Part shown: piece by piece, positions 21,601 through 23,822 of the stretch
Layout of the letters: the number at the start of each line of letters is the position of its first letter
How positions within the stretch are numbered: position 1 is the stretch's first letter
Origin: Aliicoccus persicus
Lineage (GTDB): Bacteria; Bacillota; Bacilli; Staphylococcales; Salinicoccaceae
DNA length: 64,000 nucleotides
Direction: 5' to 3'
NCBI RefSeq assembly: GCF_900110815.1
Contig: NZ_FOIT01000003.1
Span: forward strand, 24,250-88,249
The notes under the pieces: model-generated
Seen by the model: the letters and a program-made list of their open reading frames with translations, nothing else
What the model was told of the DNA's origin: nothing
Database searches by the model: none
Program-made: the position numbers and the translations under genes

Positions 21601-21626
21601 AAGGTGCGATTGTGCACCTTTTTTTA
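21601..21626 (+). terminator. Rho-independent terminator
   Basis: AAGGTGC, 6-nt loop, GCACCTT followed by T-run, just after the degV stop. Confidence 0.85.
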
Positions 21627-21722: not shown

Positions 21723-21755
21723 GGAGGTGAATCCCTTTTTTAAGGGAACTAATTG
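21723..21755 (+). promoter_or_regulatory. Hairpin between strong SD and TTG start
   Basis: GGAGGTGA (21723-21730) lies 22 nt before the TTG at 21753, too far to act directly. Between them TCCCTT (21732-21737) pairs with AAGGGA (21742-21747) around a TTTT loop. If folded, the effective distance from SD to TTG falls to 6 nt; if unfolded, AAGGGA itself is an SD 5 nt from TTG. Confidence 0.55.
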
Positions 21756-23103: not shown

Positions 23104-23145
23104 AAACGGCCATGGCTTCTTTATTTAAAGAAACCATGGCCGTTT
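23104..23145. terminator. Long hairpin, possible terminator
   Basis: AAACGGCCATGG (23104-23115) and CCATGGCCGTTT (23134-23145) pair perfectly; inside them TTCTTT and AAAGAA extend the stem. There is no clear T-run after it, so it may act more as a 3'-end stabiliser. Confidence 0.65.
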
Positions 23146-23212: not shown

Positions 23213-23539
23213 ATGGAATTTATCTTCTTAATTGTACTTGCAATAATGTCACCAGCAATTATTTCAGTCGTTGGTGAAACTTTTGTAAATATTAGAGATA
23301 GTAAATCTAAACTGGAATACAAAAAAATGGTTGAAGCTCGTCAGTTAGAAGAAATTAAACAGGAGAACTATCTTCTTGAAAATAAATCCATGCTCAAAGA
23401 ATTAGAACAAATTCGCGCTGAACGGAAGGCACTAGAAGAGGATTTAAATGACAAACGATGGTTAATTAAGGAACGAAAGCGACCTCAGAAACAATTGACG
23501 ACTAAGCAGAGTGCGTTAAAAGAAAAGAAAGAGGGATAA
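23213..23539 (+). CDS. Small membrane coiled-coil protein A
   Basis: 108 aa: an N-terminal membrane helix (residues 3-22), then a charged helix with heptad-like spacing (LEEIKQENYLLENKSMLKEL) and a basic C-terminal tail. No family recognised. The next gene, one base later, is a paralogue with the same plan and the shared cores QEN(Y/F)LLENK and RWLI. Confidence 0.7.
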   Translation: MEFIFLIVLAIMSPAIISVVGETFVNIRDSKSKLEYKKMVEARQLEEIKQENYLLENKSMLKELEQIRAERKALEEDLNDKRWLIKERKRPQKQLTTKQSALKEKKEG

Positions 23540-23540
23540 T

Positions 23541-23822
23541 ATGGATTTTGAACTCATCATTGGACTCGTCGCAACCGTCATGGCACTTGGCATACCGCTC
23601 TACGCAATTAAAAGAACTTCAGACGCGAATGATAGCAAACGCCAGCTGAAACATGTGAAAGAGCAACAAGAGTTAGAAAAAATGCGTCAAGAAAACTTTT
23701 TGCTAGAAAACAAACATATGGAACTAGAACTTGAAAAAATTAAAAATGATAGAAAACTGCGTGATGAAATCAAGTTGGAACGTGAAGATCGTTGGTTAAT
23801 AGAAGATAAAGACCGGAAATAA
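23541..23822 (+). CDS. Small membrane coiled-coil protein B
   Basis: 93 aa: membrane helix at residues 4-22, followed by a charged coiled coil (ELEKMRQENFLLENKHMELEL) ending RWLIEDKDRK. It is clearly related to the upstream protein, implying tandem duplication. The pair could form a hetero-oligomer at the membrane, which is inference only. A bidirectional terminator follows directly. Confidence 0.7.
   Translation: MDFELIIGLVATVMALGIPLYAIKRTSDANDSKRQLKHVKEQQELEKMRQENFLLENKHMELELEKIKNDRKLRDEIKLEREDRWLIEDKDRK

Follow-up and report, generated by a model that had tools for sequence, protein, structure and literature searches.

The 64,000-nucleotide (nt) stretch of Aliicoccus persicus DNA analysed here, referred to below as the window, carries a gene for a 444-amino-acid (aa) protein of the CNNM/CorC type, preceded by a leader in which a Shine-Dalgarno (SD) sequence and a UUG start codon are separated by a small hairpin (Table 1). 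The product has the mpfA-like architecture, with a CNNM membrane domain (PF01595, 1.4e-49), a CBS pair (3.5e-12) and a CorC_HlyC domain (4.7e-14). A first-pass annotation of the sequence had placed a strong SD 22 nt from the TTG of a CorC/HlyC gene, had proposed that folding of a TTTT-looped stem between them shortens this distance to 6 nt, and had read the right arm of the stem as a second, SD-like sequence 5 nt from the start. All of these coordinates and distances proved exact: GGAGGUGA lies 22 nt from the UUG along the chain and 6 nt from it with the hairpin removed, and the 3′ arm ends 5 nt before the start codon. The distal SD lies outside the hairpin and is not sequestered by it. Given that the TAA at 21750-21752 abuts the TTG in frame, no start is possible farther upstream in that frame; together with the invariant UUG of the 110 orthologues described below, this stop codon rules out a wrongly chosen start. 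The hairpin is present in both the minimum free energy (MFE) fold and the centroid fold of the leader. However, the 73-nt leader region folded alone is not unusual when compared with shuffled sequences (z = -0.96), so the Aliicoccus persicus sequence is insufficient by itself to decide on the hairpin, and comparison with other genomes is needed.

Table 1 Elements of the exporter gene and its leader, with position in the window, strand and basis of assignment
Distal Shine-Dalgarno GGAGGUGA (GGAGGTGA)	21723-21730	+	read from sequence; exposed in folded leader (predicted)
Whole bridging hairpin	21732-21747	+	covariation (87 distinct leaders); arm swap 0/5000; G-rich 3′ arm base 21/22
Hairpin 5′ arm TCCCTT (UCCCUU)	21732-21737	+	sequence; covariation; arm-swap test
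Hairpin loop TTTT (UUUU)	21738-21741	+	sequence
Hairpin 3′ arm AAGGGA, itself SD-like	21742-21747	+	sequence; covariation; arm-swap test
Spacer ACTAA, hairpin to start	21748-21752	+	sequence
UUG (TTG) start codon, next codon GAC	21753-21755	+	in-frame TAA before; UUG in relatives
CNNM/CorC-type gene, mpfA-like Mg2+ exporter, 444 aa	21753-23087	+	Pfam, all above cut-off

A (G)GAGGUG SD, a hairpin and a UUG start occur together at all 110 orthologous loci, which come from Staphylococcaceae, Salinicoccaceae and Planococcaceae, include some species twice, and amount to 54 distinct leaders among those long enough for comparison. GAGGUG and the UUG are each kept in 110/110, GAGGUG also being kept in CNNM leaders across Bacilli, and all 110 loci pass the detector described below. 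The arms vary in sequence with their pairing kept: UCCCUU/AAGGGA, UCCCUA/UAGGGA, CCCC/GGGG and CCCUCC/GGAGGG are found at the orthologous loci, and CCUCCU/AGGAGG, UCCCUC/GAGGGA, CCCCUG/CAGGGG and UCCCUCUC/GAGAGGGA farther off. Among 87 distinct rows, four of the five stem pairs have changes on both sides, and the pair cells changed on both sides number 35, where shuffles give 8.7 ± 2.3 and slid controls 0-6; these are the compensatory changes that the first-pass annotation had suggested looking for in relatives. Pairs were counted on a model alignment (A3), which leans to the model, an earlier-numbered alignment (A1) being unsuited to such counts because the Planococcus and Jeotgalicoccus arms are misregistered in it. 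Swapping arms between species, a test independent of any alignment, weakened the pairing from -10.6 to -8.5 kcal/mol, and none of 5,000 permutations was as good as the native combination. We conclude that conservation, covariation and the control genes described below rule out a chance hairpin.

To map the distribution of the element we used a purpose-built covariance model, whose E-values are rough. It gave one strong match in the Aliicoccus persicus genome and recovered the element in 142 of the 157 genomes from its order; the 15 genomes without a match all belong to a single family. In a sample of the class Bacilli, 129 of 398 genomes had matches, and these represent 28 of 146 genera. We inspected 39 regions holding 50 matches. 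Of these matches, 49 immediately precede a CNNM/CorC-type gene, in many cases each member of a tandem pair, and the start codon is UUG in all 49. The exception, at locus L202, is a weak match (E 0.03) with no CNNM gene nearby. The motif has no exact match in viral contigs.

Further CNNM genes were gathered by protein similarity from Bacilli genomes missed by the model and from the Bacilli in a phylum sample. All were scanned for closed hairpins with fixed thresholds identical to those applied to control genes; a plain MFE fold is unsuitable as a detector, since it misses hairpins accompanied by small extra stems. The full layout, with one hairpin between an SD and a start at the bridged distance, was detected in 21 of 40 CNNM genes of other Bacilli and in 1 of 29 outside Bacilli, with three leaders that are positive by eye but below the thresholds (L208, L232 and L233) counted as negative. 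As controls, 278 long open reading frames (ORFs) were taken from 20 Bacilli genomes; only 2 showed the same layout at the presumed start (39 of 2,318 candidate starts did), which rules out a general feature of genes. The hairpins found before the additional Bacilli CNNM genes are unrelated in sequence and up to 18 base pairs (bp) long; their linear gaps are 19-58 nt and their bridged gaps 7-14 nt. On the protein tree the layout is clustered, with 8 changes as against 14.1 in shuffles, and is carried by nearly all members of the mpfA clade. Three rows of the tree (L169, L184 and L196) are labelled as lacking the hairpin solely through a misplaced start; the motif is present in them. The 76 carriers on the tree start with UUG in 72 cases and AUG in 4; among control genes with a pentamer SD, UUG is found in 22 of 160.

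Measured from GGAGG to the start, the 82 leaders of the motif family have a gap of 22-29 nt along the chain and 8-11 nt when bridged. In ordinary genes of the same genomes GGAGG mostly lies 6-10 nt before ATG, the largest gap being 14 nt in a search extending to 19 nt. Thus the SD is farther from the start than ordinary SDs are, and between the two lies a hairpin that, according to the predicted fold and covariation, brings the gap into the functional range, as in a split ribosome-binding site. A near-constant bridged distance combined with variable linear distance and hairpin length is what bridging predicts. Moreover, the gap between the distal SD and the hairpin is 4 nt in 81 of 82 motif leaders, and this almost fixed spacing, together with the great stability of some hairpins, favours bridging.

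On this comparative evidence, we consider it probable that the leader is a hairpin-bridged, or split, ribosome-binding site of the kind found in T4 genes 38 and 25, conserved here on a cellular gene family. The 30S subunit would pair with the exposed distal SD and the hairpin would stay folded, absorbing some 12-46 nt; the UUG would thereby acquire an ordinary spacing from the SD, 8-11 nt counted from GGAGG for the main motif family and 7-14 nt when all cases are taken together, and the efficiency of starting would be set by the strong SD, the folded hairpin and the weak start codon. We infer that the hairpin is folded throughout initiation, that the distal SD is the one in use, and that the arrangement serves to tune or regulate how strongly the Mg2+ exporter is expressed. 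Given that the layout is found class-wide on one gene family, with the hairpin sequence turning over freely, selection appears to act on bridging itself. Two observations weigh against this interpretation. The layout is missing from roughly half of the additional Bacilli CNNM genes and from almost all of those outside Bacilli, from which it follows that it is not required for the function of the protein as such; and the 3′ arm contains a conserved SD-like sequence that would be usable if the hairpin opens.

This last observation is the starting point of the main rival explanation, a standby or dual-SD relay in which the distal SD does no more than recruit the 30S subunit, after which the hairpin opens and the proximal SD in the 3′ arm directs the start, so that the folded and open forms offer two alternative initiation routes. 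Of 22 independent hairpins, 21 have a G-rich base in the 3′ arm, with two or more G among the final four nucleotides, but only 1 has such a base in the 5′ arm. The proximal SD hidden in the hairpin, as suggested in the first-pass annotation, is therefore also conserved as judged from sequence; its use is putative. Part of the motif family even has GAGG well placed, equivalent to GGAGG 5-8 nt from the start. However, a matching tetramer is missing from the arm in 37 of the 82 motif leaders, the predicted free energy of some hairpins is as low as -16 to -25 kcal/mol, and a mere loading site would not need the nearly fixed distance between SD and hairpin. We therefore regard the relay as unlikely, and a bridged start as the better account.

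Control by melting of the hairpin, which the first-pass annotation had proposed as a sensor of Mg2+ or temperature, would suit a gene whose product belongs to an Mg2+ exporter family. In Staphylococcus aureus, mpfA is needed for Mg2+ tolerance (PMC5122736, PMC6711546), and its mRNA rises in a mutant of the DEAD-box helicase gene cshB, most at 25 °C and in RPMI (PMC5122736). The authors of that study note that the rise may be indirect (PMC5122736); it is consistent with control through RNA. Nevertheless, the hairpins appear too stable to melt, and the sensor is accordingly unsupported. For the Aliicoccus persicus hairpin the predicted free energy is -6.8 kcal/mol at 37 °C, rising to -4.4 at 55 °C; predictions for the hairpins as a group span about -4.7 to -25 kcal/mol when computed for 37 °C, and every hairpin computed retains a negative predicted free energy at 55-65 °C; melting by heat or low Mg2+ within the physiological range is thus unlikely under this energy model. 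In addition, stability varies widely between species and the strong SD is not hidden, so that, as far as predicted energies go, the leader differs from an RNA thermometer, in which the ribosome-binding site is hidden and melts in the growth range. A riboswitch would be expected to have a conserved ligand-binding core or to belong to a known family. Rfam gave no match at the gathering score and only chance-level matches at E up to 10, and CNNM leaders across Bacilli show too little conservation of loop and arms for a ligand pocket; the M-box and other metal-ion riboswitches, and any other Rfam family, are therefore ruled out. We consider the sensor very unlikely. The strong gene-family specificity of the element could instead reflect an operator, that is, a hairpin to which a regulator, either a protein or an RNA, binds and so prevents initiation, in the manner of Escherichia coli thrS. 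The same want of conserved loop or arm sequence makes a sequence-specific binder unlikely, and we judge this explanation very unlikely as well.

In most Staphylococcales a second element lies farther upstream: a mini-ORF with its own SD and the pattern (A/U)UG GGA AGG NNN, followed by 0-1 further codon and a stop (Met-Gly-Arg-x). The encoded peptides include MGRI, MGRRI, MGRCI, MGRS and MGRR, among others. The mini-ORF lies about 85-150 nt upstream of the exporter start, with its stop codon 44-99 nt before the exporter's SD, and is present at loci L095, L098, L056, L054, L047, L033, L052 and most other Staphylococcales loci, as well as at L163, L166, L187, L189, L190, L191, L232 and L234; longer versions, most of them starting MGRR, precede CNNM genes in other Bacilli families. 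Within the order, 81 of 157 genomes contain the pattern, almost always as a single copy, whereas a reversed control pattern gave 3 matches. The SD/start region of the mini-ORF can pair, with covariation, to RNA whose last nucleotide is 0-10 nt short of the SD of the exporter gene, and this long-range pairing is stronger in native than in species-swapped combinations (-13.4 versus -9.7 kcal/mol; 0 of 5,000 permutations). The mini-ORF belongs to no Rfam family, and we found no description of it in open-licence papers. We hypothesize that it acts as a leader-peptide or ribosome-occupancy switch. It is conceivable, if rather doubtful, that the whole mpfA-type leader is a ribosome-read feedback device, in which occupancy of the mini-ORF switches the fold and the bridged UUG is a constant output module. 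The Aliicoccus persicus stretch has no mini-ORF (TGGGAAGG is absent); if the feedback device is real, this species retains only the output module.

Upstream of the exporter leader, a terminator-like hairpin with a T-run lies at 21601-21620, straight after a DegV gene, and for this reason the exporter gene probably has a promoter to itself, located between 21620 and 21723. Just 3′ of the gene there is a near-perfect 19-bp inverted repeat (23104-23145), called terminator-like on the minus strand. Beyond it, two adjacent small genes (23213-23539 and 23541-23822) encode proteins that are alike, each with a short hydrophobic start and then a charged, coiled-coil-like part; neither has a match in Pfam. 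The genome has no other close copy of the 444-aa protein. Its second CNNM protein is 28% identical, and the detector did not find the leader layout before that gene.

The bridged layout before CNNM genes is apparently a conserved, undescribed way of starting translation, a literature search limited to open-licence papers having returned no description of the mpfA-type leader. Its many forms make up a naturally occurring series on which one could measure how ribosomes cope with structure separating an SD from its start codon. The layout also suggests that Mg2+ export is controlled post-transcriptionally in S. aureus and its relatives, and it affects start-site annotation of these CNNM genes, in which a UUG start is combined with a distant SD.

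The exporter has the same Pfam architecture as mpfA of S. aureus (SA0657) and of Bacillus subtilis (yhdP), and leaders of Staphylococcus relatives, including the S. aureus complex (S. schweitzeri, L098), have the same layout; the mpfA papers considered here deal with Mg2+ tolerance and mRNA level, not with the leader or start codon, and report no control of mpfA through its leader. Like the M-box riboswitch of mgtE and the mgtL type leader peptides of E. coli and Salmonella, the element is a leader RNA of an Mg2+ transport gene, and it shares with the mgtL type a very short upstream ORF, here in relatives only. It differs from both in having no Rfam match and no conserved core, and in preceding an exporter rather than an importer. 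To our knowledge, hairpin-bridged SDs are known from few examples, phage and enterobacterial. In thrS the hairpin precedes the SD and is a binding site for the thrS product itself, whereas here it lies between SD and start. What the two share is a folded hairpin within the ribosome-binding site, which in thrS the ribosome accommodates, as far as the account of Sacerdot 1998 relayed in PMC3936740 goes. The closest parallel is with T4 genes 38 and 25, in which experiments showed split sites with gaps shortened from 22 to 5 nt and from 27 to 11 nt (PMC3014915): there, as here (22 to 6 nt), a strong SD is too distant, a hairpin lies between it and the start, and folding restores, or in our case would restore, a functional gap. 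The T4 sites are phage sites with AUG starts, demonstrated experimentally, whereas ours are known from sequence comparison, start with UUG, belong to a cellular gene family and, unlike those of T4, are conserved class-wide while their hairpins turn over freely.
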